A stretch of 64,000 nucleotides of DNA, from positions 1 through 64,000 of the IMG/VR virus record IMGVR_UViG_3300037839_000499; one strand, 5' to 3'. Position numbers and translations under genes: made by a program. Below, piece by piece: positions 9,021-30,066 of this stretch; within the stretch, counting starts at the first letter, position 1, and each line of letters opens with the position of its first letter. The DNA is from a virus. Below the pieces are notes generated by a model. The model ran no database searches and was not told the origin of the DNA. It saw nothing but the letters and a program-made list of their open reading frames with translations.

Positions 9021-9323
9021 ATGGACAAATCTCAAAAATACGCGGGGCCTGCGCCTACGTCTGGCGTGGCGAGCTACGACATGAAGCCTTTGAAAAATGA
9101 ATTTATGGCAAGCTCTGGTCCGACCAAAGATCGTCTCGCCCAAAGGGAGGAAAAGAAGTCCACGCAAAGCACGATGAGCAAGGGTTATAAACCCAAGCTA
9201 AAGGCGACCGACGCCCAGATGCGCGACTACGAAAGAAATAAACCAGTCAATACCCCAGCGGGTCGGGCAAGATACGCCGACAAAGCTCCTAAAATTAACC
9301 TTCGCAAGGCGTACCAAGACTAA
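9021..9323 (+). CDS. Hypothetical virion-module protein, 100 aa
   Basis: A basic, likely disordered protein starting MDKSQKYAGPAPTSG. No Shine-Dalgarno site precedes ATG 9021; the late element lies 45 nt upstream. The K-Y-A-G-P motif also appears at the C-terminus of the next protein (NKKYAGPGPFPK), which suggests a shared binding peptide. Likely a minor structural or internal protein by position. Confidence 0.7.
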   Translation: MDKSQKYAGPAPTSGVASYDMKPLKNEFMASSGPTKDRLAQREEKKSTQSTMSKGYKPKLKATDAQMRDYERNKPVNTPAGRARYADKAPKINLRKAYQD

Positions 9324-10920: not shown

Positions 10921-13900
10921 ATGTCCTTACCCGATTTTGGTGGAACTGGAGTTGACGGCAAGCCAGAGGATAGCTTTGGTGGGCCAGAACCAGAGTATGT
11001 GCCGAGGACGAGGAGTGAGGCTCGGAGTCTTGAGCAGGAGCAAACAGGGAAGATCAAGGAAGCCACAAGGGCGTATAACTACGGATCAGAGCAAGCTCTT
11101 GAAGAGGCTGGTATAAAATACAAGACGGACGAGCAAGGATTTGTTCAACCCCGCTATGAACCGAATAATGAGTTTGGAAGGTCTGTTGAGTTTGGGACTT
11201 CGGAGTTCAAGGATCCGATTACCGAAGAAACGAGGCAGATTGATAAAACCGGAAAAGTTAAGCCCAAGAAACGGCAGAACGTAACGTATAAGTCTGGCGA
11301 CGCAAACAACCCTAATTTTCCCAATCCGTCTAGGATATACAGAGTATATACACGCGAGCAGGACGCTGGAGTTGAGGATCCCAATCAGCCTTTTGCAGCA
11401 ACTAAGGCAGAAGATATTGGAAGTGCTTTCGACTTGCAGGGGGTTTCAGATCAAGGCATTTCATCGCTGGCCAAGGAAGCCGTAAGGAAAAATAGGCAAT
11501 ACGAGCTTAGTTCGGCCAAGTCGGTGCTGGACGCAAGAGGCCAGCAGCTGGATGTCGAGTCGGAGACGTTCAAATCCCAGATCGATACCCTTAACCAAAC
11601 GCCAATCCCAGATTGGCAGCCCGACGGAGACAAAATGGATCCAGCCATCGCGGCGGAGGTTGGCGGTAAGGCTGACGCAAAAACTAGGCAAAATGTGGCC
11701 GCAAGAATTGGAATGTCCAGAGACCAGAAGATTGGCGAGGTCAGTTCGCAGTTGGCCGAAAAGAATAAGGAAAGAATCCGCAATCGTGCGCTCCAGGTCG
11801 AGCTTCAGTCGCAAATGTCCTTTGATGAGGGTGAGTCCATATATGACAACCGCGTTCAACAGCTTCTAAAGAATGGAGCAAAACAAGAGGATATTGATAA
11901 GGATCCGCTTATCGGAGCAATCCGAGAGGGGCTTACAAACATTCAGAAGCCTGTCCTGCCCTTGTCAGAGGTTTTCAAGGATCCAACGCTTGCCCCGCAG
12001 GCAATTTATGAAACAAGGGCATCCCAGCGTGAAAAGGCAAGAATTGAGGCCGAGGGAAGGCTTGCCAAGGAAAAGGCCACAGAATTTCTAAAGCCATTTA
12101 TTGAGCAGGCGGCCGACACGTCCATCAGTTACACGACATTGGCTGGGCGCAGAAATAGGCTTTCTTCTGTTTACAACAAACTTCTAGAGGACGCCGATTC
12201 ATCCGACACAAACCAGAAGGGATCTGGACTAAATCTGCGCGCGCAGGCGGCTGGTTACGCGGAAGCCATCGGAGTTCTTGACGACCAGCTTGGTAGAATT
12301 GGCAAGCAAGCCTTGATAGCCCAGGATGGGGCAAAGATTCAGGGTGAGTTTGCAAAAGAGAAGGAGCAGCGGGTTCAACAGGAGTTGAAGACCAGACTTA
12401 CGAAGCTCGAGCAAGAAACTGCGCTCAAGGTTGAGAAGTTTAAGCAACGCAAAGAGCTGGAAGATGGAGCCTTCATGGGCCCGCCGGCTCCTGAGGACAT
12501 TCCTCCATCCACGCCAACACAAGGTTCTCCGACCCAACCCACGACACCCTCCCAACCAGAAAGTCCGACAAGCTGGTTCCAAGGCGGTCTTAATAACCTC
12601 TTTAGCAAAGACACGATGCGACAAGCAACTCGAGGATACTTTGAGCTTAATCAGAAGTTTGCCTCTGGAACTTACCTTGCCGCCGCAAACTCGTTAAGAA
12701 TCCGCGGCCAAGAAATGCCGACAATGGGATCTGAGTTTGTTGGCGCAATGACCACATCCCCGTCTATGCCTGCCAAAATTATGGCGGTTCTGGGTATGGT
12801 CGACAGGCAGTTTGGAGGGAAACTTCACAATAAGGCCGCAAATTACTTTGAAGAATCTGCGACCGCAGCCAAGGAGAACGAGACAGCCATACGCAACGAG
12901 AAGTTCCTTGGAGCCGAGCCGGTAAGTCCAGAGTGGCGGGAAAGCGATGTCGGCCAAGTGGTCAAGTCGCTTACCGAGCTTCCGTTTTACATCGGCACAA
13001 CAATGATCAATCCGGCTGTCGGGTTTATTGCTACATTTGGCACGTCCTACGACGAGGCCATCCAAAACCAGCTGAATTCGGGAGTAAGAAATCCAGATCA
13101 TGTCACGGCCTTGGCTGAAGCAATCCCAGTAGCAGCAGCCGAAAGCCTTGGAAATATGGTCCAACTTGGACTAGCTAAATCTCTTGGCAGGAAGTTCATT
13201 CAAAACCTCGAAAGTATGACAGCTAGAAGCCTTCGTGGCCTTTTCGCAAGTGCGGCCATGAAAATCGGGGGAGGCTCTGCATTCGAAGGGATGGAGGAAG
13301 GCGTTCAAACGTGGTGGTCAAATATGATTGCCAAGCATATCGGTAAATTTGATCCAAACAGACCGCTAGATAAAGACGTTTGGAAAAGTATCTACGTTGC
13401 GATGTGGGCCGGTGGAGCTGGAGTTACCGTAATGGGAGGCGGAACTGTTGTTCTGACAGGCGCACAGAACGCACTCAATGAGCGTGGGCTTCGGAAACAG
13501 GTCGACGAAATGAGGACAGCTACCGAGGACATTCCTCTAAACGGATGGGAGGACTGGGGAAATAAACTTCCAGAGCAAGTGCTGGATCCTGGACTGGCTG
13601 AAAGTTTTGGCGAAATCGGTGCTGATCTTGATGAGCAACAAGGGCAATTCCTTGTTGGATTGGCTGACAGCATTAAGGGCGCGCCATTCAGAAGATTGCT
13701 GGAACTTGGCAAATCAATCGACGAAAGCATTAATCAACCGCCCGCTCTTCAAAGCCGAGCGGCCGGGATCCTGACCGGAGCCAAAAACGAACAATTGAAG
13801 GGTGAGGCAGACTTATATGCCGAAAGGGCTAACCTTGCCGCGATTATGCAGGGAGAGGCACAACTTCGCTTGCGTGTCGCAAGGGAGATTGGAACGCTTC

Positions 13901-16900
13901 CGACTGACCCTGTTGACGGCGGTCTGGATCAACAGGCGACTGGTCTTATCGCTGCCAAGGTTTTGTTTGGATCTAGCGGAGTTACCCAAGAGGAGCTGAA
14001 GGCAAAATACCGAGGGATGCCAATCATCCAAACCGACTCTAATGGTATTCAAGTGCCATCAGAGTTTGTGAAGCAGGACATATTTTCACAAGCGCCAACC
14101 ATGTCCGAACAGCTGAAAGGATTTTTAAGTCGGGTAGATCAAGCTATGGCAAAAGCGGAAGTTTCTGGCGGTGCGAGCGCAGAACCCCCAGAGCCACCGA
14201 AGCCAGAGCAGAAGCCAACCGGGAAGCCGAGACAAGTTGATCAAGCGAACCTGAAGACCCCGCGCCAGATCGCGGAGGCCAGCGCAAAGACAGGATCCCC
14301 CGCTCTGATGGCAAGGCTGGAAGGCACGACCCCGGACGAGAGATGGGCATCGGTTGAGTCGAAGATGAAAAATCTCGTAACAGCCATCGGCTCAAAGGGG
14401 CTGGATGTGAAATTTCTCTCTGATGACAGGCAAGAAGCATCTTCTGCCGGATTTGATGTGGACAACAAAACACTCCGTATCAACCTCAACCGAAAGGCTT
14501 TCATGGATATGGAGGGTACTGATCCAGAGGCAAACAACCGGTATGTAAGGGAAGAGATAGCTCACCTTGGAGACATTGCAGAGGGGGCATTGGACGCAAA
14601 AAGACAGGGCAAGGACAACTACCGCGAGCATTGGGAACAGCAACGCGCGACCATGCTTTCAAGAATCTTTAATGTCGCAAAGCAAGACAAGGCAGTAGAG
14701 GAATCGGTGGTAGCGGCTGCAAATCTTTATCTTGAAAACGTCTTTAGCAAGCCGATGACGGATGACGGCGGGAACAAGTTCTCGTCTACGAGCGCACCGA
14801 TGTCCGCCACGATGGATGCGCTTGTCCGTGGCGAAGTGATGCCTCAGTTCAAAACAATTTCAGATGTTCAGCGGTACATGGTTCGGAATGGGGTGGGCGG
14901 GGAGAAGGGTGTTCGTGCGATGCCCCTCTTTATGGCTGAGATGCTTCGGATGCTTAAGACGTATGGACAGCCCCAAACGGAATCTAGAAACTACCTCCGC
15001 ACGGCCGCGAAAACAACGGGAGGTTCGCGAGCCATTATCAAGATCATTTCCGATTACCTTCGAAAAGTATACAAAGCGCTGTTTTCCATTAAGGATAGCC
15101 TGGTCAAAGCCGACCCTCAGCTGGCTGAAGATTTGAGCAACCTCTTGTCTGAAATAGACGATGTTCTCTCTGATTCACCTAGCCAGCCAAGAGTGGAAAT
15201 AAATCCACGTAGCCCCAATGAGCCACAAGCTCCAGAGGCCAAGCCCCGCGCCCCACCCGAAACAGGTGAAAATGTCCCGCAACCGCCAGTTGAACCGCCG
15301 GTTATCGCCCCTCAAGGAGGAGGTCAAGCAGTTGGAACTATTGCACCGCCAGCGACAAGAATAGTCCCTCGAGGCCGGATGGTATCAGTTACCTATGACA
15401 AGCTTGGGTCTGGGGGAGTGGAATCAGTCACGGAACAAGTCCAGCTGACAAAGGAGCAAGAACTAGAGTGGGAAAAGGGCGAGGCGAATTACCGGCAGTC
15501 AGCGGAGATGGCTAAAAGGACAAAAGATCCGGCCATGCGCTCGAGCCGGATGCAAGGCGCTGGGTATGAGTGGGCGAAAAGAAAGAGGGAGATAACTGGC
15601 CGACTCCATTACAGGGAGCAGATGGAGAAAGAAGCCCGAGAGAAAAAAAATTACATCGGCAAGAAGGTTGGGATTCAGGCTGAGGAGGGGATTCTCTCGG
15701 CAACTATTATTGGGAATCCGTTCGGGCGGGTTAAGGTTCGGCTTGAGGACGGGCAAGAGCTTACGGTTCTGCCAGATCAGCTGACGAGCGCGCCCGAGAT
15801 CGAGCAAGACGAACCCACGACAATTCCATCTGGTCAAGTTGTCGATTTCCCAGTCAATAAGATCGTTGTTAACGACAAGATCCAGCAATTCAAAAAGAAG
15901 GCCAAGAAGGATTCGGGAGTCGTAAAAGCTCTAACTGGAGAATACCAAGCAACTCCGAAGAACCCGATTGTTATCTGGGAGCGAAACGACGGAGTGTTCG
16001 AGGTTATTACGGGCCGTCATCGGCTGGATCTGGCCAAGCGAAACAACATGGCAACAGTTCCAGCCCAAATCGTCAAAGAATCAGAGGGATGGACACAAGA
16101 AAAAGCTGAAACTTTCGATGCCGAAGCGAACATCCGCGACGGCCAAGGCGACCTCGAGGACTTTGCCTACTATTTTAGAAAGTCTGGAATCAGCCAGCAG
16201 GACGCCGAAGTAAAGGGTCTGTTGCGAGATGACGGCAAGGGGAAAGCTGGATTCTTAATCGCCAACGAGGCGACTGAAGATGTTTATGCAGGGCTAATGG
16301 CCGGCAAGGTGGACGCAGGGATGGCGGTTATTATCGCCTCTGGTGCTCCGAAATCTGTTGGAGCCGTCAATGAATCGATCCAGAGGGCGGCCTTGAACTA
16401 TGTTACTTCAGAAAGAGTAACCCAGCAGGACGTTCGCAACTTCATCTCAGGGATGATCGCAACGTTCGCCGATAAGGGGCCATCCGAGTCGCAATCAGAC
16501 CTGTTTGGTAGCGATGACTCCGCCTTGGAGCTGATGAAGCAACGAGCAAAGAAGGCCTCAAAGATCCAAAGGGATGTGCGTCAAAAGCTGAACGCAATGT
16601 TGAATTTCAAAAAGCTGAGCCGAGAGGGGCAGGCTCAAGCCTTAGAGGATGTAGGTGTAACCATAGCTGTGGGAGAAGACTCCGTGGCGAAGGTAAACCA
16701 AAAAATAACGGATCTGCAGGCCGAACTCGCCTCTTGGGAGAGATGGGCTACGGATCCAGAGAAGGTGGGCCAGATCGACCAAATGCCTAACATCAAGGCA
16801 CAAAGGATTAACATCCAGGCTCAGCGTATTGACGACACCCAAGAAGGAGGCGTAGACTCTAATAGTGAAGAACGAACTCAATCCGGAACAAGTGAAGGAA

Positions 16901-19900
16901 TACAGCCGACTGGCAGCGGAGGAGGCATATCCCCGACTGGTGAAGTGGCAACGGGACAACCCGGAGAACTTCAGAATGTGGAAGACGGACGCGGACGCCC
17001 TTTATCAGGATCCGTGGATCAACGACTTGACGGAGGATCCGGAGAGAACCAAGGATTGGCTGACAACGCTGTTCCGGCAAGCGTGCGGATCAGTAGAGGG
17101 CCACAACCAAATCTTGGCGCTCTTCAGTCGCTCCAAAGGAGAGAACCGAGAGTCGAAGTTGGGCGAACTGCTAATGTCGATGACGCTGAACGAGTTTTAG
17201 GCGAGGGTCTAGAAACCCAAGTTCCTTGGGTTCCGGTTATTCAGGGTAGCGGGGTTAGCCTAAAGACATTTGCTCCCGCTGGCATTGCGGACGAGATGCG
17301 CAGAAACTTGGAGAGAATCGACAGGGAGCGCGGTGGATTAGAGCAGTACGTAGCTAATGCGCTTGGCCTTGCAGACACTTCCGAGCTTTACCGAGTCATA
17401 AATCCAAAGGCTGGATCTAGGCTCAACAAGGAGCAAGTTGAGACAATCGCGGCCGCGCTTGACCGCATGGATGCAGGTAAGTCCTGTATTATTGGACATG
17501 AGATGGGCATAGGCAAGGGGCGCCCGTGCGCAGCTATCCTTTACGTGGCCTATTTGCGCGGCCAAATCCCGATCTTCTTTACGGCTAACTCGAGAACCTT
17601 GTATCCGACTCTAATGGATGACTTTAAGGATCTTGGATTCAAGATGGATCCATTTATTACCGACCAAGACTTTGAATCAGTAATGGGTGATGGAAGTGTT
17701 TTAACAAACAAGGGTAAAAATCCGAAGGCATTGTTCGATTCGATTGCAGCAAGCAAGAAATTGCCGACTGGCAAGACGATGATAATGACCACATGGGAGC
17801 AGGCGCGGCTCAAGGATGTGAACGCTGTTCTTAACGCCTTGGCTCCAAATGCGGTCTTCGTAATCGACGAGGCTCACAAAGGAACTGGCGATTCGCTCTC
17901 ATCGGAAGTTGCTCGAGGCATTCTGAAGAAAGCAAAAGGAGTGACGTTCTCCAGCGGAACAGCCATTAAGAATCTTGAGGCGATGCGCCTCTATTTCCCA
18001 TTCACTTCCGTCAATCGGGCCATTCCTTCCGTTCGCCGGCTAAACCAGCTTCTCAAGAAGTTTGCCAATCCTTTGCTCGAGCTGATGAATCGAGGCCTTG
18101 TCTCTGCGGGTGAGTATATTCGCTACCAGAGAGGCCTGACCCATAATGGCGAGCCGGTACCATTTACCGCATTGGCTCTACGTACTGGACCACAGGTTGT
18201 GGAGGTGAACGAGACGGCAAACGAAATCGCTGGCGAGTTAAAACAGATCCAAGCAGGGCCGTTTATGAAGCAGTTGCGCGGGGTGCTCATGCCTCTGGTG
18301 AAAACTAAGGCAGCCGCAATGATCGAGGACAAGCCCGAGCTGGCTGCAACGCTGACAATAAAAGTAGAGCCGTACCCCATGAAGTCGCAGTTCCACAATA
18401 TCGCAAACATCATGGTGCTGGCCTCGAAAATCCCCGAGATTTCAAAGCAGATTAAAGCCCTGGTCGATCAAGGCAATAAGGTGTTTGTAGCCTCTGACGC
18501 AACTGGGGAAGCCGCAGTACAAGAGTTGCTTGATGATATTTCGCTAGAAACCGACCCAAAGAATGCTTCGTTTGCGGATGCCCTTTCCCGATATACCGAC
18601 AAGCTAAAGTACATAACTATCACGGCAAAGGTCGGCCCCAAGGGTAGGCAACAGACCTTATTCCGCCAAAAGCTCGATCTGAATAGAGCGCAGGAAGAGT
18701 ACCCAGAGGCAGTAGAGAGAGCGCAACAAGTACTACAGCAGATTGCTGATGCCAAGAGCATGATTGAGTCCTCAAGGAATATTCTTGGGAGACTAGGCAT
18801 CTCGCCGATGGATTCACTCCGACAACAGCTGGAGTCAGTACAGATCCCAAGCGTCGAGATCTCCGGCCGGTCGGCCACAGTGATGCCTGATGGAACCCGC
18901 GAAAAGCGGACGGAGCTAGACCAAGACCGAATGGCCTCGCTTTCGATGTTTAACAACTTGGACGATATGAATGTAATTTCAGTTTCACGCTCTGGCTCAA
19001 CTGGGATTAACGCCCATAATTCCCCTAAATTTAACTCTCAAAAGGATCGCGTATTCTTTCTTTTGCAGCCGTCTCCGAACGTAGTGGACACAGTTCAGGT
19101 TGCCGCCCGCGTGAATCGAACCGGACAGCTGACGGCGCCTCACCTTTACATGGCCTATGCCGAGGAGTTGCCTGCAGAAAAGCGGATGATGGCTCTAACA
19201 GCCAAGAAGATGTCGAAGCTCGGAGCGTCAAGCACCGGCGGACAAAAGCTCGATATGTCGGAAACCTTTGGGGAGGACATGCACAACGCTTACGGAGATC
19301 TGGCAATGGCCAATGTTCTGGCAAGGGACGAAACATTCAGACAAGAGTTTCAGTCTAGGCATAACGAATACTTCCCAGGATCCAATGAAGAGGAGGTTCG
19401 GGCAAACCTAATGAAGGGAGCTGGCAACGGAGATGTGTTCAGAAGGTTTGAGCACATGCTTATCATTATGCCTTTGGACATTTACTCCCAAATTTCGGAG
19501 CAAATACGCGACGAATATAATGAGATCGTTGAGACGGAAAAGATGGCTGGACGATACAACCTCACGTCCGAAAAGATGGACTACAAGGCGGTGCTGGTGG
19601 ATGACATGCCGGGAATGGCCCCATACAGCCCCCGCAGGGAAGGCGAACCAGATATCGGGACCGCCCAGCCCACGCAACTTCGCAGATATCGATTTACCAA
19701 CCCAACGCCACCGCCGGCATCCGAACAGCTGATTAAGGACATCGACAAGGTGAAGGCCGATACGGCTCAACTTGTGCAGAAATACAACGAATCAGCGGAG
19801 AAATACCTGAGCGACAGGGTCAATTTGATTACAAGCCGATCCCGCCTTGATCCAAATGCAAGGAATCTGCTTATTCAGGCCATCACAAGAAAGATGGCGG

Positions 19901-22900
19901 TAGCCCAAGCGGCCGTGGCGGCTGCGGCTGAAAAGGTGGGCGGAGGCTACTGGTATCACATTAACGACACTCAAGTTCCAGTTTTTGTGACTGGCTTACG
20001 GCTGAACATTAAGTATCCGCATGTTGTCGCTTCTCAGCGTATGCTTATCCAAAGCGCGGGGTTCAACCATCTCATGCCGGTTCCAATTTCCGCCAACCCT
20101 CTTTCTCGGTTGGCATCGGCCCAAGCCGCTTTCAATAATAACCCGCTCGAGCAGAACGAGCTTGGCATCGAGATGCCCCTTCTGGACATCACTCCGACTG
20201 GCCAAGACTCCGAGGCGGCTTTCTATCGCTCATTCCAGCAGACGGAAACGTATGCAGCTGCAAAAGCTTGGGAGAACCATCCTTTCGCACTCCGAGAAAA
20301 ATACATGAGCTTCGCTATGGATAGAGCCGGGTATAGGCCTGGATTCTTCAGAGTTAACCGCAAATTCTCAGACGGAAAGACGGTGAATAGTCTTTATTAC
20401 GACGGGAACACGATTATCGAGATGTCTCCTGTGCGTACCCGCGAGATTCTTTCCTTTGTGTCTGAAAAGACTGAGAACGCCCAGACCGAAAAAGAGGTAG
20501 TTGACGCATTTGCTGAGGCGTTGGATGTAACGCAGGACATCGACACAATAACCGATGAGGGCGCGGTAGCTACGGATCAAGGGCAAAAGCAATTTGTAGG
20601 CAAGATGAACAACCGCCGGCGCAACCAAGTTGTATCTGGTGCGTATGACCGCGAGCGCCAGAAGGCGATGCAACAAGACCACTTCGTTATTGCTGGCAAT
20701 CCCTTGGTGGCTGCAGATATGGCGACTAGGTTGTTTGGCCAGCAGTTAAATCACCGCATCATGCGATTCACTAATCAGGACGGAAGTGAGACAACTGGCA
20801 TTGTTGTTCCCGCCCAAGCCGAGTTCAGTCAGCTCAGGAAGCTTTCAGACGTAATGAATACCAAAGAGACAATTCAGCGTTCTGATGCCGAGAGGGTGCT
20901 GGACTTCCTGAATAGCACCATCACAAGACACCATAACGCAACGGAGGTCGTGTTTACGGACGGAGCCACAATTTCATACGCAACCACAGAGGCAACGGCC
21001 ATTGAGACACCCCATTCACTCAAATCGATAATCCCAAATCGAGTGTGGGAAATGGCGCAAGATCAGCTGGCCGACTTATCTGTTGTGGAGGAGGGAGGAG
21101 TCCCTGATGAGGTCAGAGCGGAGCTTGAGAAGTTAGTTCCTGGAGCAAAGGTATCGGCAGAGGGGCCATACATTGTTGTTGCAATGGGTGGTTTTGATGC
21201 CGGAAAATACATCGCTAAGAGGATGGCGAGGGCTTCCGACAGGATCGCTACTGGCGCAACGCCTATTGAAGGTTACGCCTATTCCGGCCCCCGCTCAGTT
21301 CAAATTCACGCCCAGCGGATTGGGGATGAAATCACCCCAGAGATATGGAACTACTACCGGATCGCCACCCAACAGACTACTGACTCAGATGGGGGCGTGG
21401 GGCCGTCGCCAGCAGTTCGAATGGTTCTACGAATGTTCCCGAATATGGATGCCTCGTATGTGGAGGATTCAGCTGTTTCTGGTGTTCTGAAAGCCATTAA
21501 AGCTCTTGCCGTAATGCGGACGCAGGATCCGGGCAAGTTTGCCGAAATGGAGGGATCCATGACTCCTGAAGGCGGAATACCCAAGAAGATTTTCTCCTAC
21601 ATGGTCGAAGCCGCCAAAAACAGCGTGCTTACGTCCTACCAAAAGTTTGGGCAGTACGAGGTTGACCCACCCGAGCAACAAGGGATGCAGATGCTTGAGG
21701 ATGAGGAAACCGTGGCCGAGGTTCTGGCGGGTAGGGCAACCGCATTTAGCGATGATGAGGGGCCGGACATCGTTACTCCCAAGGAGATAGAAGAGACTGA
21801 GTTTACCAAGGCCCTGCGTAGCGACATGGAAGCCGCATTCCAGATTATTGATCCACGCTTGGCCCAAGTGTTTGTCGCTCACAACCGAGGAATGACATTC
21901 GAGGCAATTGCAGATGAATTTGCGTTGCCACCGATTATCGGGAAGGACGGGAAGCAACGCCCAAACAAGCAGATGGCCCAGCGTATGTACGATGATGCGC
22001 TCCGAGCCTTACAAGACTTTGCTGGTGACAATAGCTTGTTCGCAACCAACTCGAGGCCACAAAAGCCTGTGAGTAGGGCATTGCGGCTCGCCATGGAAGC
22101 AGGGCTAATTCGACCCATGTCGATCAACGCACAGCGGATCTACACAACCGATTCTGAGGAAGACGGTGAAACAGCGAACCTTGTTCGGCAGTTCCGTAGC
22201 ACCCAGCTTGGGCAGGCCATTGCGGCGCTTCGTTCTGGACCGCAACCAGCCGGCAACCTCATCCGTGGGATTGCGGAGCCAGCAAACGAAAACAATAAGG
22301 CGATCCAAGCCTACTACCGGCTTCTTAGCCAAGCCTTGGTCAAGGGTATTGAGGCCAACCCATCGTCATTCCTTGGCAGGGCATCAAATACCGACGTAGT
22401 AATCGATGAATCGATCCCAACGTCTCACTTCTCGTCGAGCAAAATGGATCCGTTTACGATGGGAATTATCCGGCTTCACCCTGGTCAATTGAGTCCGAGG
22501 GTAATTCTGCATGAATTTGTTCATGCCTTTACCGCTCAACTCATTGGAACCGAAATCATTAAGAATTTCCAACCTCGCCGTGGAGAGATGACTGGATCGA
22601 AGTATCGCGAGGCATTAACCACTTACGCCAACAAGCAACCCATCGATACAGACAACCCAACAGGGGCGATCCCCGCGATGCAGAGCCTTGTGAAGGCATA
22701 TCTTGGGGCATTGAAGTACGCCAAAGACGATGCCGGTCAACCGATTGAGAACGCAATCTTTGGTTCTGGCCTAACTGCCAGCTTCTCAATCACGTTGCCT
22801 ATGCACCGAGCGAGCTATGCCGGCGGATTGCATATGTCGGCGCACATTGATGCGTCCAATTCAAAGGCTATCTATGACCACTTTACCGAACTTGGGCTTG

Positions 22901-25900
22901 AGGGTAAGGCTGGAGTGCCGAATGACACTCTTGATGCCTATGTAAATAAGAATGGTTCGACCAATGACTTCTTTATCTCCAGTCCGGCCGGATCGCTTGC
23001 TGGCCTAGAGGTTGAGGCTGACGGAAAGCTCATACTTACCCCTTCTGGGCTAGAAAAGCTAAGGACTCAGAATGTAGCCCCTTCGGCATATTCAACTTAC
23101 ACCATACGCTCCTCGAAGCCTGTGTTTAAGCAGAGGATTCTGGGCGTGGTTGGCGATCCCACGAAAAGGGCGATGTCGATTCTCTATGGATTCAAGAACA
23201 TTGACGAGTTTTCCGCTGAAACGATGAGCAACCCTTCATTTGTGGGTATGATTGCTGGTCTGGATGTGCCGAAAGGGCTAACCAAGACCCCGCATGACTA
23301 TCTGATTGAATGGTTTGATCAGCTGGAGTCAGATCTGCTGAACCTAAAGGGTGGAATGAAGGGAGCCGTGAGGAACATGGCTGCCGGAACCCTAGTAGGG
23401 TCGACGGCTGGATCCTTGATGGACATCGGATCGATCAAGATTACCGATTATCAGACTATTCTTGGGAATCGAGAGTCAGCCACAAGGTCAGAATCTCCCA
23501 CACAACAAGGACAGCTTTTTGCCCAAAGGATCGGCGGAGATAGGCTTGAGGAGAAGATTACAAACACAATTCAGGCGATGCCAAGGGGCGGCCTAATTAC
23601 TACTACTAAAGGGGCATTCTCGATACGGCCGAGGGTTGGGTCGGATGGTTGGGTAACGAGGGGAATCGACAATCCAAGAAGGGTTATCACTAAGACCATC
23701 TCGGCCGCCGTTGCTGGGTTGCCCGGGATCCGCGGTATGGTGCAAGTGGTTAAGTCCTACACCCGCGATGACGTAGCCCCTTCGGATCTAGGCGGTGAAA
23801 AGAACCCATTAGCCTTGGAATACAAGAAGTTAACCGATATTCCGACCCCCACCGATGAACAGCGCAAGCGGATCTCAGAAATCGAGAGGTTTGCCACCAA
23901 GTACAAGATGCCAGGAGTCGGCGTTCAGCAAGCCTTGTTCGACACGGGCAAATACGCTGGGTCGCCCAATCGGCCAACGGGATCTACTCCATCCGTTATC
24001 GAGACTCCGCCAGCTAGGTTTATCGCACCCCAAATGGAGCTTGCCCTTAATGCCCAACGGATTGAGCCAAGCGGATCCCAAAAAATCCTTTCTGAAATTA
24101 ACCAGCTTCGCGCGATGCGTGACTCTGGCCAGTCCTACAACGAGAAGCGGTTGCGCCAACTAGAGTTTACTGCCAGCCAAACCAAGCTGGCCGGGTATCA
24201 GCCGGAAGGCCAGCTGATGGCCACAGAGACAAGCCTCAATCCAACAGTTCAGCCCTTTGCGTTAGAGCAAGAAACAAGGCCGGCAATGGTGCAACAGAAT
24301 TTGTTTGCTCAAAGGATTGATTACGACGACAACGGAAACCCTGTGGTTACGCCAAAGCCACTTACCCCAGAAGAGTTAATGTCTATCCGAGCCGACCTCT
24401 TGGGTGACTTGGGTAAAGATGCCCCAGAAGTGATGGCGATGTATCGCAAGTTACGTATCCAGCCATCTGGGGTTAAGACGCTGGGTGGAGTCTACCAAAC
24501 AGGCGAAAACGGCGGGCCGGCGAGAAGCTTGGCAAACCCTGGACAAACAGCCGAACAGCGGGACTTGATTAACGCGATGGATGCGATGCGTTTCCAGCGT
24601 GGGCTTGGGATTAAGCAGGATTCGGCAGTTGAGGACGCCGCCACTCAAATTCTTTCTACGCCGGAAGGTCGGCTTGGAGTCCAAGAGGCCGTTCTATCAG
24701 GTCAGTCTCTAAACACGGAAACAACATTAGCGGCCATGAAAATGGTCGGAGAGATGGTGCAAGAGGCAATTACCAGCGAAAACGCTGAGGACTTAGGTAA
24801 GGCATACGCTATGACGTACATGTATCGAGAAGCCAGATCCGAGACCGCTCGCTCCCTTCGGATTGGCTACGACAGGCTAATGACGCCAGCTCAGCGACAC
24901 TCTGAGTTTCTTATGGCCGTAATGGTTCAGCCTGAGCGAAACAGGATTCTTGAACTAAAGTATTACCCAACCGAATCCCAAAACCGAAGCGATATAAGAA
25001 GCTTGCAGGCAACACTTGAGGATTTGCTTAAGGAAAGAAACGACTTACTAGGCTCCCAAGGCAACTCGGAAGAGATGGCGGCCGTGCTGGAACAGAGGAA
25101 CGCCGAGATTCAAGCAATGCAGGCGCAAATCGCGGATTTACAGAATCGCGTGACTCGAGAGCAAGTTATGGCCCAAGAAGCACAAGAGAGGTTGGCGGAT
25201 GTAAATCGCACGCTCGCTGGCCTTGGAACAAGTCTCCAGCAGTTAATGAAGGAGTCCGAGCTTTCAGAAATTAGAACAGGACGGCCGGCTACCCAAATGC
25301 TGGATCAAGTGAGGCTTTCTCCAAAGGAACGTGAGGCGGTGGAGCTGATTATGATCGGGCATGACCCGGTTTCAGTTTCCAAGCAAACCAAAGTTAAGCT
25401 GGTGGATATTAAGGGTGCGATGGATGTCATGCGGTCTGAGGCCAAAAGAAGGTTTAGCCAGATCGCTCAAAGCGGGATGACCCGAGACCAGCTCCGCAAG
25501 GCGCTCCTCGAAAACGCAAGAACGGACGCTTCGATGAGGCAGATATTGGCCCAGCGGATTCCAGACAATCAGCCGTTGGGCGAGGAAGAGGCGATGGAGG
25601 AGATCTACAACATGCTGGGCCTTACGCTTACCCCAACTGGTGACTATAAGTGGGCTGAGCGCAAGGGCAAAAGCAACCTCTTCGACCTACGGAAACCAGA
25701 ACATATCGTGGTGCTTGCAAAATCCATTCAAGCCGGGAAGCCAACAATCGACGGAACTATATTTGAGGCTTACGTCGCAAGCATTTTCAGCGGATTCGCA
25801 ACGCAAATTGCAAATATGGCGATGACCCCACTTTCCCCAATCACAACATCTGTTCATCGCGGATTTCAAGCGCTTACTACATATCTTTTGGGCAAGGCCG

Positions 25901-27867
25901 GAATCAATCAAGAAGTCGAAGTTGACAAGATCGACAATCGGCAAGTCCCACTCTTTAAGCCAGGGACAGCATACAATAGTCTATCAGATGCGGCAGAGGG
26001 GGCAGGCCGTGAGATTGGATATATATTGAGAGCAGTTGTTCCGGCATTCTTCGAGGCGGTAACAATGGGTAAGTTGGCTTGGGCAACCGAAGCAGGATTC
26101 TTTGACTACAATGTTTCTGGAGTTCTTGAGGACATCGATGATCCACAGACAAGGTTTGGTGCGTTCCTGCAGAAGTACGGAAGAACGAGAAAGACAAGAA
26201 TACCCGGAAAGCTCGGGAAGGCGGTTCGCGCTCCGCTTCGCGGTCTGCTTGCTGCCGATGAATTCACGAAGACGTTCAGGGCATACATGAATGTTGGCGC
26301 GCATGCCTATCGGTTAGGCAAAGCCTCTGGTCTTAATGGTGCGGAGTTAAATTCATTTGTAGAAAAGGAGATTAATGGGGCTGGCTCAACAAGCTGGATG
26401 CTTGCGGCCCGCCGAGCAACCAAGGAGACATTCACATTCCAATTAAGGCCAGAAAACGGCCAAGTCCGCTCTGTCGGCGACTTTGCGGCCGAAAACGTAG
26501 GGCGACTCTCAGATTTTTACGCAAGCCTTGAAAACGCCGCAACTGCCATGGACGGGAATCCGCTATTTATGCCAGCTAGGGCGACCCTTCGCCTCATCCA
26601 GTCGTTTTTGGTTTTAATCAAAAGCCCATTCAATATTTACCGCGAAGGTTATGCCTACACGGCTCCTGCCATACTTAACTTAATTTCAAGAGCTAGGAGG
26701 TTTAAGGAGACCGAGGTTGCTGGCAAGAAAATCAAGTATCTGCCCGTGACCGAGTACGACGACTTTGTTGAAAGGCTAACAAGCTTTGGAATCGGAACTG
26801 CAATACTTGCTGGTTTCTTAATCGGGGGCGCAGAAGGAGATGACGATGACGACAAGAAGCTCTTGCTTGTTACCGGGACGCCAGATCCGCTGGCTCCAGG
26901 AGGACAGCGGGTAACTAGGTTTGGCAACTCTCCATTCAAAATTATTCTTAGGGGCGATTGGCTTAAGAGCCTCGGCGTTACTACTGGCGAATACGTCCTC
27001 GACTACAGCCGAGTCGAACCCATTGGAACCTTAATTTCGGCTAATATTAATATCGCCAGAACGATGAAGGAGACCTTCAGAAACCCAAGCCAAGCTGGAT
27101 CTGCTGGCGCAAATCTATTTAAGGACTATTTCTTGGCTCCCGGAACAAGAACCTACGGCAAAGCATGGCGCGATATGGTGAGCCTGTTTGATTTGGAGGG
27201 AAGCGGATGGCAAAGGGTCTTAAGGGACAAGTTATCCGCCATAATGTCGCCCAATTTATTCAAGCAACCGTTTGGTGGGATCCCCGAATATGAGAAGGAT
27301 GTTTATAATCCAGATCCATTAGCCGCAGATGCTCTTGCATTTGCGATCCTGCCAGGACTCGGAGACCAGCTAGGGATTCCTGATCGGCGCACATTCGAGG
27401 GCATGAAAGTTCCCAACCCAGTTCTGTACGATGGGGCCGGCCCAGCTGCAAGGTCAGTCGCTCGGCTATTGCCCGGACGATTCGGCGAAGGATTCGGGAA
27501 GACAGATTTCGAGAAATTCATAGACAACTACAATCGTCAACACCCTGACAAAAGGTGGAATCCAGACCTTTCTCGACCAGATCGATTCTTTGACGACAAA
27601 TATCTTCGCCAAAGGGTTGCCTTGACCAACTCCGAGTACGAGATGGTGCTCAAAATGGCCGCACCCAAAATAAAGGCCTATCTGTATGGGAATAGCGCGG
27701 AGAGCGGTACTTTATCTCAAAAGGACTTATCTGGCTTTATTCCAGAAGACCGCAAGGACGTAGTCCAAAGAACGATTTCTGGATTCTATCGGGATGCTAA
27801 GAAAGCAGTTGTGGATGCGCGGCACAGAAGAGAGCTGAAGGCTTTACAGTCTAGCCCCGCTAAGTAG
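10921..27867 (+). CDS. Giant multidomain polyvalent protein, 5,648 aa (probable polyprotein)
   Basis: One uninterrupted 16.9-kb frame between terminase and portal. Segments in order: 1-590, charged and coiled, Pro-rich near 540; ~600-890, hydrophobic helical block; ~1170-1430, degenerate metallopeptidase-like region with E1211-E-I-A-H1215; 1641-1790, ParB-like domain (GRHR at 1698-1701); ~2140-2780, SF2 helicase of SNF2/strawberry-notch type (G-I-G-K-G 2196-2200, DEAH 2316-2319, VAARVNRTGQ 2727-2736); ~3500-3700, sigma-factor-like segment; HEFVH 3864-3868 with DEFSAE 4095-4100, a zinc metallopeptidase; ~4690-4780, coiled coil followed by a helix-turn-helix; 4880-5648, a membrane-active C-terminal block. 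AQRI occurs eight times between these parts. Domain mixtures like this are known as phage polyvalent proteins, injected with the genome. Virion location and processing are inferred. Confidence 0.9.
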   Translation: MSLPDFGGTGVDGKPEDSFGGPEPEYVPRTRSEARSLEQEQTGKIKEATRAYNYGSEQALEEAGIKYKTDEQGFVQPRYEPNNEFGRSVEFGTSEFKDPITEETRQIDKTGKVKPKKRQNVTYKSGDANNPNFPNPSRIYRVYTREQDAGVEDPNQPFAATKAEDIGSAFDLQGVSDQGISSLAKEAVRKNRQYELSSAKSVLDARGQQLDVESETFKSQIDTLNQTPIPDWQPDGDKMDPAIAAEVGGKADAKTRQNVAARIGMSRDQKIGEVSSQLAEKNKERIRNRALQVELQSQMSFDEGESIYDNRVQQLLKNGAKQEDIDKDPLIGAIREGLTNIQKPVLPLSEVFKDPTLAPQAIYETRASQREKARIEAEGRLAKEKATEFLKPFIEQAADTSISYTTLAGRRNRLSSVYNKLLEDADSSDTNQKGSGLNLRAQAAGYAEAIGVLDDQLGRIGKQALIAQDGAKIQGEFAKEKEQRVQQELKTRLTKLEQETALKVEKFKQRKELEDGAFMGPPAPEDIPPSTPTQGSPTQPTTPSQPESPTSWFQGGLNNLFSKDTMRQATRGYFELNQKFASGTYLAAANSLRIRGQEMPTMGSEFVGAMTTSPSMPAKIMAVLGMVDRQFGGKLHNKAANYFEESATAAKENETAIRNEKFLGAEPVSPEWRESDVGQVVKSLTELPFYIGTTMINPAVGFIATFGTSYDEAIQNQLNSGVRNPDHVTALAEAIPVAAAESLGNMVQLGLAKSLGRKFIQNLESMTARSLRGLFASAAMKIGGGSAFEGMEEGVQTWWSNMIAKHIGKFDPNRPLDKDVWKSIYVAMWAGGAGVTVMGGGTVVLTGAQNALNERGLRKQVDEMRTATEDIPLNGWEDWGNKLPEQVLDPGLAESFGEIGADLDEQQGQFLVGLADSIKGAPFRRLLELGKSIDESINQPPALQSRAAGILTGAKNEQLKGEADLYAERANLAAIMQGEAQLRLRVAREIGTLPTDPVDGGLDQQATGLIAAKVLFGSSGVTQEELKAKYRGMPIIQTDSNGIQVPSEFVKQDIFSQAPTMSEQLKGFLSRVDQAMAKAEVSGGASAEPPEPPKPEQKPTGKPRQVDQANLKTPRQIAEASAKTGSPALMARLEGTTPDERWASVESKMKNLVTAIGSKGLDVKFLSDDRQEASSAGFDVDNKTLRINLNRKAFMDMEGTDPEANNRYVREEIAHLGDIAEGALDAKRQGKDNYREHWEQQRATMLSRIFNVAKQDKAVEESVVAAANLYLENVFSKPMTDDGGNKFSSTSAPMSATMDALVRGEVMPQFKTISDVQRYMVRNGVGGEKGVRAMPLFMAEMLRMLKTYGQPQTESRNYLRTAAKTTGGSRAIIKIISDYLRKVYKALFSIKDSLVKADPQLAEDLSNLLSEIDDVLSDSPSQPRVEINPRSPNEPQAPEAKPRAPPETGENVPQPPVEPPVIAPQGGGQAVGTIAPPATRIVPRGRMVSVTYDKLGSGGVESVTEQVQLTKEQELEWEKGEANYRQSAEMAKRTKDPAMRSSRMQGAGYEWAKRKREITGRLHYREQMEKEAREKKNYIGKKVGIQAEEGILSATIIGNPFGRVKVRLEDGQELTVLPDQLTSAPEIEQDEPTTIPSGQVVDFPVNKIVVNDKIQQFKKKAKKDSGVVKALTGEYQATPKNPIVIWERNDGVFEVITGRHRLDLAKRNNMATVPAQIVKESEGWTQEKAETFDAEANIRDGQGDLEDFAYYFRKSGISQQDAEVKGLLRDDGKGKAGFLIANEATEDVYAGLMAGKVDAGMAVIIASGAPKSVGAVNESIQRAALNYVTSERVTQQDVRNFISGMIATFADKGPSESQSDLFGSDDSALELMKQRAKKASKIQRDVRQKLNAMLNFKKLSREGQAQALEDVGVTIAVGEDSVAKVNQKITDLQAELASWERWATDPEKVGQIDQMPNIKAQRINIQAQRIDDTQEGGVDSNSEERTQSGTSEGIQPTGSGGGISPTGEVATGQPGELQNVEDGRGRPLSGSVDQRLDGGSGENQGLADNAVPASVRISRGPQPNLGALQSLQRREPRVEVGRTANVDDAERVLGEGLETQVPWVPVIQGSGVSLKTFAPAGIADEMRRNLERIDRERGGLEQYVANALGLADTSELYRVINPKAGSRLNKEQVETIAAALDRMDAGKSCIIGHEMGIGKGRPCAAILYVAYLRGQIPIFFTANSRTLYPTLMDDFKDLGFKMDPFITDQDFESVMGDGSVLTNKGKNPKALFDSIAASKKLPTGKTMIMTTWEQARLKDVNAVLNALAPNAVFVIDEAHKGTGDSLSSEVARGILKKAKGVTFSSGTAIKNLEAMRLYFPFTSVNRAIPSVRRLNQLLKKFANPLLELMNRGLVSAGEYIRYQRGLTHNGEPVPFTALALRTGPQVVEVNETANEIAGELKQIQAGPFMKQLRGVLMPLVKTKAAAMIEDKPELAATLTIKVEPYPMKSQFHNIANIMVLASKIPEISKQIKALVDQGNKVFVASDATGEAAVQELLDDISLETDPKNASFADALSRYTDKLKYITITAKVGPKGRQQTLFRQKLDLNRAQEEYPEAVERAQQVLQQIADAKSMIESSRNILGRLGISPMDSLRQQLESVQIPSVEISGRSATVMPDGTREKRTELDQDRMASLSMFNNLDDMNVISVSRSGSTGINAHNSPKFNSQKDRVFFLLQPSPNVVDTVQVAARVNRTGQLTAPHLYMAYAEELPAEKRMMALTAKKMSKLGASSTGGQKLDMSETFGEDMHNAYGDLAMANVLARDETFRQEFQSRHNEYFPGSNEEEVRANLMKGAGNGDVFRRFEHMLIIMPLDIYSQISEQIRDEYNEIVETEKMAGRYNLTSEKMDYKAVLVDDMPGMAPYSPRREGEPDIGTAQPTQLRRYRFTNPTPPPASEQLIKDIDKVKADTAQLVQKYNESAEKYLSDRVNLITSRSRLDPNARNLLIQAITRKMAVAQAAVAAAAEKVGGGYWYHINDTQVPVFVTGLRLNIKYPHVVASQRMLIQSAGFNHLMPVPISANPLSRLASAQAAFNNNPLEQNELGIEMPLLDITPTGQDSEAAFYRSFQQTETYAAAKAWENHPFALREKYMSFAMDRAGYRPGFFRVNRKFSDGKTVNSLYYDGNTIIEMSPVRTREILSFVSEKTENAQTEKEVVDAFAEALDVTQDIDTITDEGAVATDQGQKQFVGKMNNRRRNQVVSGAYDRERQKAMQQDHFVIAGNPLVAADMATRLFGQQLNHRIMRFTNQDGSETTGIVVPAQAEFSQLRKLSDVMNTKETIQRSDAERVLDFLNSTITRHHNATEVVFTDGATISYATTEATAIETPHSLKSIIPNRVWEMAQDQLADLSVVEEGGVPDEVRAELEKLVPGAKVSAEGPYIVVAMGGFDAGKYIAKRMARASDRIATGATPIEGYAYSGPRSVQIHAQRIGDEITPEIWNYYRIATQQTTDSDGGVGPSPAVRMVLRMFPNMDASYVEDSAVSGVLKAIKALAVMRTQDPGKFAEMEGSMTPEGGIPKKIFSYMVEAAKNSVLTSYQKFGQYEVDPPEQQGMQMLEDEETVAEVLAGRATAFSDDEGPDIVTPKEIEETEFTKALRSDMEAAFQIIDPRLAQVFVAHNRGMTFEAIADEFALPPIIGKDGKQRPNKQMAQRMYDDALRALQDFAGDNSLFATNSRPQKPVSRALRLAMEAGLIRPMSINAQRIYTTDSEEDGETANLVRQFRSTQLGQAIAALRSGPQPAGNLIRGIAEPANENNKAIQAYYRLLSQALVKGIEANPSSFLGRASNTDVVIDESIPTSHFSSSKMDPFTMGIIRLHPGQLSPRVILHEFVHAFTAQLIGTEIIKNFQPRRGEMTGSKYREALTTYANKQPIDTDNPTGAIPAMQSLVKAYLGALKYAKDDAGQPIENAIFGSGLTASFSITLPMHRASYAGGLHMSAHIDASNSKAIYDHFTELGLEGKAGVPNDTLDAYVNKNGSTNDFFISSPAGSLAGLEVEADGKLILTPSGLEKLRTQNVAPSAYSTYTIRSSKPVFKQRILGVVGDPTKRAMSILYGFKNIDEFSAETMSNPSFVGMIAGLDVPKGLTKTPHDYLIEWFDQLESDLLNLKGGMKGAVRNMAAGTLVGSTAGSLMDIGSIKITDYQTILGNRESATRSESPTQQGQLFAQRIGGDRLEEKITNTIQAMPRGGLITTTKGAFSIRPRVGSDGWVTRGIDNPRRVITKTISAAVAGLPGIRGMVQVVKSYTRDDVAPSDLGGEKNPLALEYKKLTDIPTPTDEQRKRISEIERFATKYKMPGVGVQQALFDTGKYAGSPNRPTGSTPSVIETPPARFIAPQMELALNAQRIEPSGSQKILSEINQLRAMRDSGQSYNEKRLRQLEFTASQTKLAGYQPEGQLMATETSLNPTVQPFALEQETRPAMVQQNLFAQRIDYDDNGNPVVTPKPLTPEELMSIRADLLGDLGKDAPEVMAMYRKLRIQPSGVKTLGGVYQTGENGGPARSLANPGQTAEQRDLINAMDAMRFQRGLGIKQDSAVEDAATQILSTPEGRLGVQEAVLSGQSLNTETTLAAMKMVGEMVQEAITSENAEDLGKAYAMTYMYREARSETARSLRIGYDRLMTPAQRHSEFLMAVMVQPERNRILELKYYPTESQNRSDIRSLQATLEDLLKERNDLLGSQGNSEEMAAVLEQRNAEIQAMQAQIADLQNRVTREQVMAQEAQERLADVNRTLAGLGTSLQQLMKESELSEIRTGRPATQMLDQVRLSPKEREAVELIMIGHDPVSVSKQTKVKLVDIKGAMDVMRSEAKRRFSQIAQSGMTRDQLRKALLENARTDASMRQILAQRIPDNQPLGEEEAMEEIYNMLGLTLTPTGDYKWAERKGKSNLFDLRKPEHIVVLAKSIQAGKPTIDGTIFEAYVASIFSGFATQIANMAMTPLSPITTSVHRGFQALTTYLLGKAGINQEVEVDKIDNRQVPLFKPGTAYNSLSDAAEGAGREIGYILRAVVPAFFEAVTMGKLAWATEAGFFDYNVSGVLEDIDDPQTRFGAFLQKYGRTRKTRIPGKLGKAVRAPLRGLLAADEFTKTFRAYMNVGAHAYRLGKASGLNGAELNSFVEKEINGAGSTSWMLAARRATKETFTFQLRPENGQVRSVGDFAAENVGRLSDFYASLENAATAMDGNPLFMPARATLRLIQSFLVLIKSPFNIYREGYAYTAPAILNLISRARRFKETEVAGKKIKYLPVTEYDDFVERLTSFGIGTAILAGFLIGGAEGDDDDDKKLLLVTGTPDPLAPGGQRVTRFGNSPFKIILRGDWLKSLGVTTGEYVLDYSRVEPIGTLISANINIARTMKETFRNPSQAGSAGANLFKDYFLAPGTRTYGKAWRDMVSLFDLEGSGWQRVLRDKLSAIMSPNLFKQPFGGIPEYEKDVYNPDPLAADALAFAILPGLGDQLGIPDRRTFEGMKVPNPVLYDGAGPAARSVARLLPGRFGEGFGKTDFEKFIDNYNRQHPDKRWNPDLSRPDRFFDDKYLRQRVALTNSEYEMVLKMAAPKIKAYLYGNSAESGTLSQKDLSGFIPEDRKDVVQRTISGFYRDAKKAVVDARHRRELKALQSSPAK
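27819..27844 (+). promoter_or_regulatory. Late bipartite element, copy E (weaker)
   Basis: GCGGCACAGAAG inside the last codons of the giant gene, ending 46 nt before ATG 27877 of the portal gene. The first nine bases match copy D; the second half is GCTT rather than GTTG. No Shine-Dalgarno site precedes the portal start. Spacing is the main support. Confidence 0.5.
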
Positions 27868-27876
27868 TCGAGTTAT

Positions 27877-30066
27877 ATGGCTGAAACGCAGATAGATACG
27901 CTTTTGGAGAGCACGGACGCCCTTGAAAAGGCCATAGACCAAGCCAAACCGCTGGAAGGCGGGGAGGCACTAGGAGGCGGATCCCCAGCTCCCAATAGCT
28001 TTTCAACAGCCTATCTGCTTACGGCGGAACAGGAGAAAAACCTAGTCGCCCACGCCATAAGAAGGCTCCGGGAAACCGAAGCCGACATGGGTCGCAACCT
28101 CACCCGATCTGCCGCTTGGCATAACAATATGTCGGGCGGGATTCCGGCTCATGATACTTTCCTTGGTAGAAGGCAGATATTTGAATGGATTTACGAGAAT
28201 AACGTAAGCTGGCGTCCGTTCACGATGGGCGGAATCTTTGAGCATAGTAATCTCATCGTTCCGTTAACTCGCAGGATTGCTCGGCAAATGATCGCTCGAG
28301 CCGTTAAGTATTTCCTTGGTACAGACCCTTGGTTCGGGGTTTTGCCAGAAGGATCCTCAGATCGGAATGTGGCCGACCGGCTTGAAAAGTACGCCCGATT
28401 TAAGTTTGACCGACTGAAGATTAAGGATGCCCTAAAGATGGCCATCCAGATTGCATTTGTCCGAGGGGAGTGCGTCGTCAAAACCACCTACACCCAGAAA
28501 GATCAAATATATAAAAAGCTCCTGCGGGTAATGGTAGACGGCCAAGGGAATCCCATTATGGCGGCCGACGGTGATTTTATTACAGAAAACGACCGGTTTG
28601 CCCCATCTCAAGACGGCCAAATGGTTCTCCAGAGAGACATGCAGACCCCGCAACCCATGTTCCCAATCTTTATGGAGCAATTGGTTACACGGAAGTCCGA
28701 CATATTTATCGGGCCTGCGGCCGAGCCAGTATACTTTCAAGACTTTTTGTGTCCGCTAAATGCGTCTTCTGTCGATGATGCCGATTTCTGCGCTCATCTT
28801 TACGATGCACCGGTGATGGAGCTGGCCGACCTTTACAGGAAAAAGGGAGTCGGATCGGAGGATCCAGACGAAGAGCTGGCAAGAATCCGTAGCGTGATTG
28901 AGCAGATTCGGCTGGCCTCAAGCGAAAGCGGAGATCCCAAAACAGGGGCTGGGCAAGCTAGGTCTGAACGAGGTGAGGGTCAGGTGGGGGTCAACAATAC
29001 AGCCCAGCCGTCCCTTGAAGTGGCTGAATGCTACATTCGCTACGATGCGGATGGCGACGGGATTACCGAAGAAATTATGCTACTTCTCGATGTTAAGAAC
29101 CAAAAAGCCATCTTTTATGAGTACACAGCCAATGTAACTGCTGACGGTAAGAGGCCGTTCACAGTTCTTAGGGTTAATCCAGTAGACGGCCGGTGGTATG
29201 GGATCGGAGCGGTGGAGCAGTTTAAGTCCTCGCAGGACTTTATTGATCTGACGGTAAACCGATTAAACTTTGCCCAAGGAGCAAGCGGGCGGATCACGTT
29301 CTGGAGGCCAGACGCCACTTACGAGGGATCCTCTAATCCAAACCTAGTTCTCAACAGCGGAGGCACTTACACGCTTCGCCCAGGATTTTCAGCCAAGGAT
29401 GCCGTTGAATATGTGGCACTCCCAGAGACCAAAAACGACCAGCTGAGCTTCATGTTGAACTATTTTACGCAGATTGTTCAGCTGGAGTCAGGGATTGTGA
29501 ATCCCGGCGACCAAGACTTTGCGGGTCTTCCAAGTTCCAAGCTGGCAACCGGAATCCGCTCGATTGACGCTTCGGGCCAAGAAATGTTTAGCCAATACAT
29601 TCAAGACATGCTCGCCCCGCTGATGCAGATTATGAATCGTCTCGTTCTGCTACTACTCAAAAACTTAGACAAGAAGGAGGCTTTCAACTATCTCGAAGGA
29701 GATGCGTTGAGTCTTATCTCTATCGGGCCAGATGACGTAAAGGGCATGGAATTGAATATAAAATTACTTCTAACCCGCTTCTACGGAGAGCAACAGCTTC
29801 AGAGTAATGCCCAAGCGGCCAATCTTGTGACGCAATTTTACTCCCTCCCGCCCGAAATTCAGCAGAAAGTATCCTTGTTCTACACTCAATCATTGAAGTC
29901 CCTTGGCGTTGTAGAGGCCGAGCAGATTATTCAGCCATTTGAAGTAACAGGGGCAACTACCCAAGATGGAAGAGTTTTCGGGCAATCCGGATCCCCAGGA
30001 GCGCCAGCCGGTGCAGTTGGGAATCCAAGACAAGTACCACTAGATCCCGGATCCGCTGGCGGATGA
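27877..30066 (+). CDS. Portal protein
   Basis: 729 aa, the size of podovirus portals. The N-terminal third carries a portal-like core (IVPLTRRIARQMIARAVKYFLGTDPWFGVLPEG...KIKDALKMAIQIAFVRGECVVKTTY). The middle has the YDADGDGITEE acidic loop and an LRVNPVDGRWYGIGAVEQF segment common in large portal proteins. The C-terminal ~40 residues are a Gly/Pro-rich tail. It would form the dodecameric DNA entry ring at one capsid vertex. The stop overlaps the next start (ATGA). Confidence 0.85.
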   Translation: MAETQIDTLLESTDALEKAIDQAKPLEGGEALGGGSPAPNSFSTAYLLTAEQEKNLVAHAIRRLRETEADMGRNLTRSAAWHNNMSGGIPAHDTFLGRRQIFEWIYENNVSWRPFTMGGIFEHSNLIVPLTRRIARQMIARAVKYFLGTDPWFGVLPEGSSDRNVADRLEKYARFKFDRLKIKDALKMAIQIAFVRGECVVKTTYTQKDQIYKKLLRVMVDGQGNPIMAADGDFITENDRFAPSQDGQMVLQRDMQTPQPMFPIFMEQLVTRKSDIFIGPAAEPVYFQDFLCPLNASSVDDADFCAHLYDAPVMELADLYRKKGVGSEDPDEELARIRSVIEQIRLASSESGDPKTGAGQARSERGEGQVGVNNTAQPSLEVAECYIRYDADGDGITEEIMLLLDVKNQKAIFYEYTANVTADGKRPFTVLRVNPVDGRWYGIGAVEQFKSSQDFIDLTVNRLNFAQGASGRITFWRPDATYEGSSNPNLVLNSGGTYTLRPGFSAKDAVEYVALPETKNDQLSFMLNYFTQIVQLESGIVNPGDQDFAGLPSSKLATGIRSIDASGQEMFSQYIQDMLAPLMQIMNRLVLLLLKNLDKKEAFNYLEGDALSLISIGPDDVKGMELNIKLLLTRFYGEQQLQSNAQAANLVTQFYSLPPEIQQKVSLFYTQSLKSLGVVEAEQIIQPFEVTGATTQDGRVFGQSGSPGAPAGAVGNPRQVPLDPGSAGG

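Follow-up and report, generated by a model that had tools for sequence, protein, structure and literature searches.

Candidate processing sites at the domain junctions of a giant phage polyvalent-type protein, and their counterparts in a sister clade

Polyvalent proteins are very large proteins of phages and conjugative elements that join many domains in one chain, among them ddrB-ParB-like and SF2 helicase domains, a zincin-type HExxH domain (common but not obligatory) and a C-terminal membrane region; those of phages travel in the virion and are delivered to the host. Self-processing by their metallopeptidase domains was predicted in 2017 (Iyer et al. 2017, PMC5512222). In phage P1, the DarA, DdrB and DarB proteins are packaged in the virion, and proteolytic processing has been reported for DarA and DdrB (PMC12810830, PMC5512222). 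The stretch of viral DNA analysed here (the window) covers positions 1 to 64,000 of the IMG/VR record IMGVR_UViG_3300037839_000499 and contains an open reading frame (ORF) for a giant protein of 5,648 amino acids (aa), which resembles polyvalent proteins in its ParB-like domain, its SF2 helicase, its C-terminal membrane region and an HExxH motif of the zincin type. Within this giant the tetrapeptide AQRI recurs eight times, at seven domain boundaries, and the question addressed is what reads these copies.

A repeated motif at the junctions of the giant

The earlier note on this DNA had placed AQRI at residues 1960, 1967, 3464, 3737, 4201, 4378, 4463 and 4877, with a chance expectation of about 0.1. 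All eight positions are confirmed, and the residue composition of the giant gives an expectation of 0.109 (Poisson P 4e-13). In 1,000 full shuffles of the protein, the commonest tetrapeptide of any kind never exceeded five copies and AQRI never exceeded two; the next commonest tetrapeptides of the real protein occur four times each. No AQRI was found in the other real genes of the window. The codons vary among the copies and the flanking sequences are unrelated, which argues against a repeat of DNA or of a domain and for selection on the peptide. The preceding residues had been described as often I or L followed by N or F. The first part of this pattern is tighter than claimed, with I or L at position -2 in eight of eight copies (P ~9e-8), and the second part fails, since position -1 is free (K, Q, H, N, F, N, F and L). 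The true motif is [I/L]-x-A-Q-R-I. Its first two copies form a tandem pair, giving seven junction clusters, and the N-terminal 1,959 residues of the giant contain none.

All copies are encoded on the plus strand and are numbered here in order as sites 1a, 1b and 2 to 7. Sites 1a (16798..16809; AQRI or AQTI in relatives) and 1b (16819..16830; AQRI, SQRI or AQRV in relatives) lie between the ParB-like region and the helicase. Site 2 (21310..21321) is followed by site 3 (22129..22140), which precedes the metallopeptidase region, and by site 4 (LFAQRI, 23521..23532), which comes after it. Site 5 (APQMELALNAQRI, 24052..24063) and site 6 (LFAQRI, 24307..24318; AQRL in relatives) lead to site 7 (25549..25560), located before the C-terminal membrane block.

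Four viral contigs covering the giant, 86-94% identical to it in the segments searched, served as close relatives. The alignment of homologues proposed in the earlier note places every site in these relatives, as AQRI or as AQTI, AQRV, AQRL or SQRI. The loss of AQRI from close homologues, which had been named as evidence against processing, does not occur; in distant homologues AQRI is gone but an equivalent motif occupies the same junctions. Within the motif, nonsynonymous to synonymous codon differences per relative are 1:11, 2:10, 1:13 and 4:10, and in its flanks 30:40, 29:50, 29:45 and 45:76, the relatives not being mutually independent.

Four Q-x-x-L-F strings of the giant, at residues 1858, 4196, 4336 and 4458 (QSDLF, QGQLF, QQALF and QQNLF), look like sliding-clamp binding motifs, and two of them lead straight into AQRI sites.

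The same junctions in a sister clade

The distant homologues form a sister clade with a portal protein 65-67% identical and a giant ~23-39% identical to those of the window. AQRI is absent from the sister-clade giants. They carry L-x-S-R-G-[L/I] seven times, at residues 1976, 3365, 3633, 4074, 4186, 4280 and 4687 in locus L026, where seven L.SRG copies stand against 0.11 expected (P 3.6e-11). There is one copy per junction, at the same seven junctions as the AQRI clusters, and none was found in the other ORFs of the sister-clade loci checked. Loci of this clade that cover the sites retain the motif, with an occasional LFARG. The junction spacings are 1497/273/464/177/85/414 in the window and 1389/268/441/112/94/407 in the sister clade, a match equalled in none of 200,000 random placements.

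Four of the seven sites are aligned column for column between the clades, as illustrated by APQMELALNAQRI of the window and APQMEQLSLFSRGL of the sister clade. Site 4 shares its column with LFSRGI or LFARGI, site 5 aligns with (A/V)P(Q/K)MEQLSLFSRG(L/I), site 6 with LYSRGL, LFSRGL or MFSRGL, and site 7 with LRSRGI. The other three are displaced within the same linker: site 1 corresponds to LSSRGL ~90 aa further along the alignment, site 2 to LRSRGL at the same junction ~30 columns off, and site 3 to LFSRGL ~18 columns off. The skeleton hydrophobic-x-[A/S]-x-x-[I/L/V] is common to both codes.

Because seven scattered short motifs were replaced together at conserved places, a single reader that changed is indicated. 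That one recogniser reads all seven junctions is well supported, and we hold this single-reader junction code to be very probable. An origin by chance, or from conserved repeated homologous domains, has nothing but the shortness of the motif to recommend it; it is already refuted by the shuffles, the unrelated flanks, the varied codons, and the conservation and replacement at orthologous junctions, and its probability is negligible. The earlier note had offered two meanings for the array, a polyprotein cut into separate products or a shared docking motif. Boundaries read by one factor are strongly borne out by the conservation, the rare nonsynonymous changes and the concerted replacement, which would fit either meaning.

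A third clade, sought with a helicase profile, was not found. Neither the site-bearing part of the giant nor the portal had a match among described phages, and a genome scan with a portal profile was also empty. As a separate feature of the sister clade, PPAP proline-rich repeats are strongly enriched in the giants of L026 and L027, but not in that of the window.

The candidate peptidase and other possible readers

The giant ORF (10921..27867, plus strand) lies directly upstream of the portal gene (27877..30066; SU10_portal, E-value 1.9e-25). Its domains, all on the plus strand, include a ParB-like domain (15793..16356, residues ~1625-1812; PHROGs ParB-like matches, best E-value 1.2e-5) and an SF2 helicase of the strawberry-notch type (17425..19563; Helicase_C_4, E-value 9.9e-18; AAA_34, E-value 3.7e-5), and the sister-clade giant matches ddrB-ParB (PF18763, E-value 1.3e-16). 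Several unrelated enzymatic or DNA-binding domains are thus gathered in a single very large chain, and these matches place the giant among phage polyvalent megaproteins. A sigma-region-4-like segment between sites 2 and 3 (21850..21933) is a weak candidate: its sole profile match is in the sister clade (Sigma70_r4_2, E-value 0.0074, under the curated cut-off), and its position in the window comes from the alignment. The C-terminus, 3' of site 7, forms a membrane block. The claim that the sites fall between recognisable parts stands for the junctions, with the ParB-like domain and the helicase supported, the metallopeptidase recognised by HExxH and conservation only, and the sigma-like unit weak.

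Between sites 3 and 4 the giant carries a zincin-type metallopeptidase motif, HEFVH (residues 3864-3868, 22510..22524, plus strand), the candidate cutter. It reads HEFVH or HEFIH in the AQRI clade and HEYKH in the sister clade, with the H, E and H columns invariant, and wherever the region is covered, in either clade, the HExxH is intact. No other plausible gene of the window contains an HExxH; the one further match lies in a 192-aa reverse-strand frame at 45787. Downstream, EFSAE (residues 4096-4100, 23206..23220, plus strand) has invariant E, F and E columns, and its conserved Glu residues offer a candidate third zinc ligand on account of the zincin layout given in PMC5512222. The intact zinc metallopeptidase announced by the earlier note is backed by HExxH and conserved Glu residues across two clades, a motif-level assignment.

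The best reading is that [I/L]-x-A-Q-R-I marks candidate processing sites cut by this zincin-like domain encoded in cis, a conclusion we favour by a modest measure. The motif marks seven boundaries of a polyvalent megaprotein, all very probably read by a single recogniser, and proteolysis there would separate an N-terminal part with ParB, the helicase, the sigma-like unit, the metallopeptidase, two short segments, a ~414 aa segment and the C-terminal membrane block. Cutting by the zincin-like domain of the same chain could take place in the head or after injection. Thermolysin-like enzymes cut before a hydrophobic P1' residue. A guessed cut at AQR|I and SRG|L would likewise lie before a hydrophobic P1' residue, and the skeleton shared by both codes would suit a zincin of that kind. 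The earlier suggestion that the in-frame metallopeptidase is the cutter gains strength from its being the only universally intact HExxH, from the sites on both of its sides, and from the failure to recognise a prohead protease among the window genes tested, which make this domain the best candidate.

Several observations weigh against such self-cleavage. According to PMC5512222, ArdC, TraC1 and N4 vRNAP carry such domains yet are delivered unprocessed, and the Bacteroides phage BS-TP4 has a similar giant with a HEAVAH motif and no repeated tetrapeptide. The concerted switch is one contrast between two clades. The zincin assignment consists of HExxH and conserved Glu residues, with no Pfam match and no sequence relative in the PDB, and no similarity emerged when profiles were compared with a region that contains another polyvalent metallopeptidase. 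AlphaFold models, both of 1,200 aa that include five of the sites and of the metallopeptidase region, had a mean predicted local distance difference test (pLDDT) score of ~34, the alignment being too shallow, and support no conclusion.

A second, degenerate zincin-like motif is present at residues 1210-1215 (REEIAH, 14548..14565, plus strand). Every AQRI-clade member has REEIAH here, and sister-clade giants have HEELLH (L026 and L027), GEEILH (L099 and L105) or GEEVLH (L098), a pattern that may reflect the decay of a duplicated peptidase-like domain. A role as the general reader is unlikely, because the motif is degraded in most members (GEEILH, GEEVLH, REEIAH). The idea that the motif switch was simply tied to the disappearance of this N-terminal motif was also weighed and dropped, since some sister members have lost the His (GEEILH, GEEVLH) yet keep SRG sites.

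The cuts could also be made by another protease, either a host enzyme or a phage prohead protease that escaped recognition. In P1, DarA is a substrate of the prohead protease Pro (PMC12810830), and many window genes have no assigned function. However, none of the genes tested was recognised as a peptidase, the gene that precedes that of the capsid resembles a disordered scaffold, and the capsid and scaffold proteins of the window lack the motif, unlike the usual pattern of prohead proteases. We consider this explanation improbable.

More serious, though still rather unlikely, is a role of the motif in docking or packaging, as a signal whose seven spread copies bind one partner that loads or unfolds the chain without any cut. 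An altered receptor would equally give concerted replacement of all copies, and partners such as a head protein, a chaperone or the disordered protein encoded upstream of the giant can be envisaged, the last having a C-terminus conserved in both clades. For head targeting of DarB in phage P1 an N-terminal signal is enough, and the localization of DarB is assisted by Ulx (PMC9024508). Packaging of the P1 type nevertheless uses a single N-terminal signal, the first 1,959 residues of the giant have no copy, and the copies sit at domain junctions and flank an intact peptidase motif.

The upstream protein itself (9324-10862, plus strand) has 512 aa and is disordered, with a C-terminal stretch, MTNKPASSQAEYDQRTKAF...ELNKKYAGPGPFP, almost identical in the sister clade. 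It is a candidate packaging partner or tag. A copy of KYAGPAP is found at the start of the small ORF 9021-9323.

Comparison with described systems

Processing of P1 DarA differs from what is proposed here in that DarA is reported to lose an N-terminal piece to a separate prohead protease, and an internal array of sites is not described in the available text of PMC12810830. In Bcep22-like podoviruses, the genes of the DarB-like giants (JC1 gp69 and BcepIL02 gp70) lie near that of a ~500-aa virion protein, as in the window, and JC1 gp69 has been detected in virions with 51 unique peptides (PMC9144972). BcepIL02 gp70 differs: it lacks both an AQRI and an SRG array and has just scattered FS[VK] motifs.

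The Bacteroides phages BS-TP4 (L012) and BKO1-TP3 (L049) share with the window the order giant, portal, reverse-strand spike genes and capsid, together with a similar helicase and a HEXXXH motif. This gene order suggests a distant common lineage. Their giants differ in having no repeated tetrapeptide, and that of BS-TP4 matches LPD38 at 8.3e-39, whereas neither the window giant nor the sister giant matches an LPD-type domain model of Pfam, such as the C-terminal LPD38. In polyvalent proteins at large such domains are frequent but not obligatory.

A shorter string, FSR, could be a more widespread relative of the LFSRG code and a possible general junction motif. In 39 other polyvalent giants from prophages and phages, 36 non-orthologous copies were counted against 13.4 expected (2.7-fold), a moderate enrichment given that other orders of the same letters reach 7-24 copies, with RFS at 24. 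The BS-TP4 giant has none, and no literature connecting FSR to polyvalent proteins was found. FSR often occurs as P-x-R/M-F-S-R-x-G, with at most four copies per protein, in loci L057-L093 and in phages BcepIL02, H66, Vibrio 1.232.O, 252E42.2 and 1F273. It is plausible, and put forward only tentatively, that megaproteins are self-cleaving polyproteins with a lineage-specific code (AQRI or SRG[L/I]) that is rewritten everywhere at once as the specificity of the cis zincin changes, FSR being its wider form.

These results bear on how phage megaproteins of at least 5,000 residues are packed in the head and passed into the cell. From the array follow precise candidate sites and the sizes of the predicted products, and the two codes of the sister clades amount to a natural experiment. 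If the proposal is true, it would show where polyvalent proteins are divided into segments and yield a zinc protease that is sequence-specific, with two specificities known.

The 2017 proposal of self-processing named no cleavage sites, and no cleavage motif is described in the available text of that account (PMC5512222); here a strict site array and its concerted switch are observed. In its way of working, the giant resembles self-cleaving viral polyproteins, to which no relationship is claimed: a recurring recognition sequence at domain junctions is combined with a protease motif in one chain, and the sequences at the junctions, where cleavage is predicted, change jointly between lineages.
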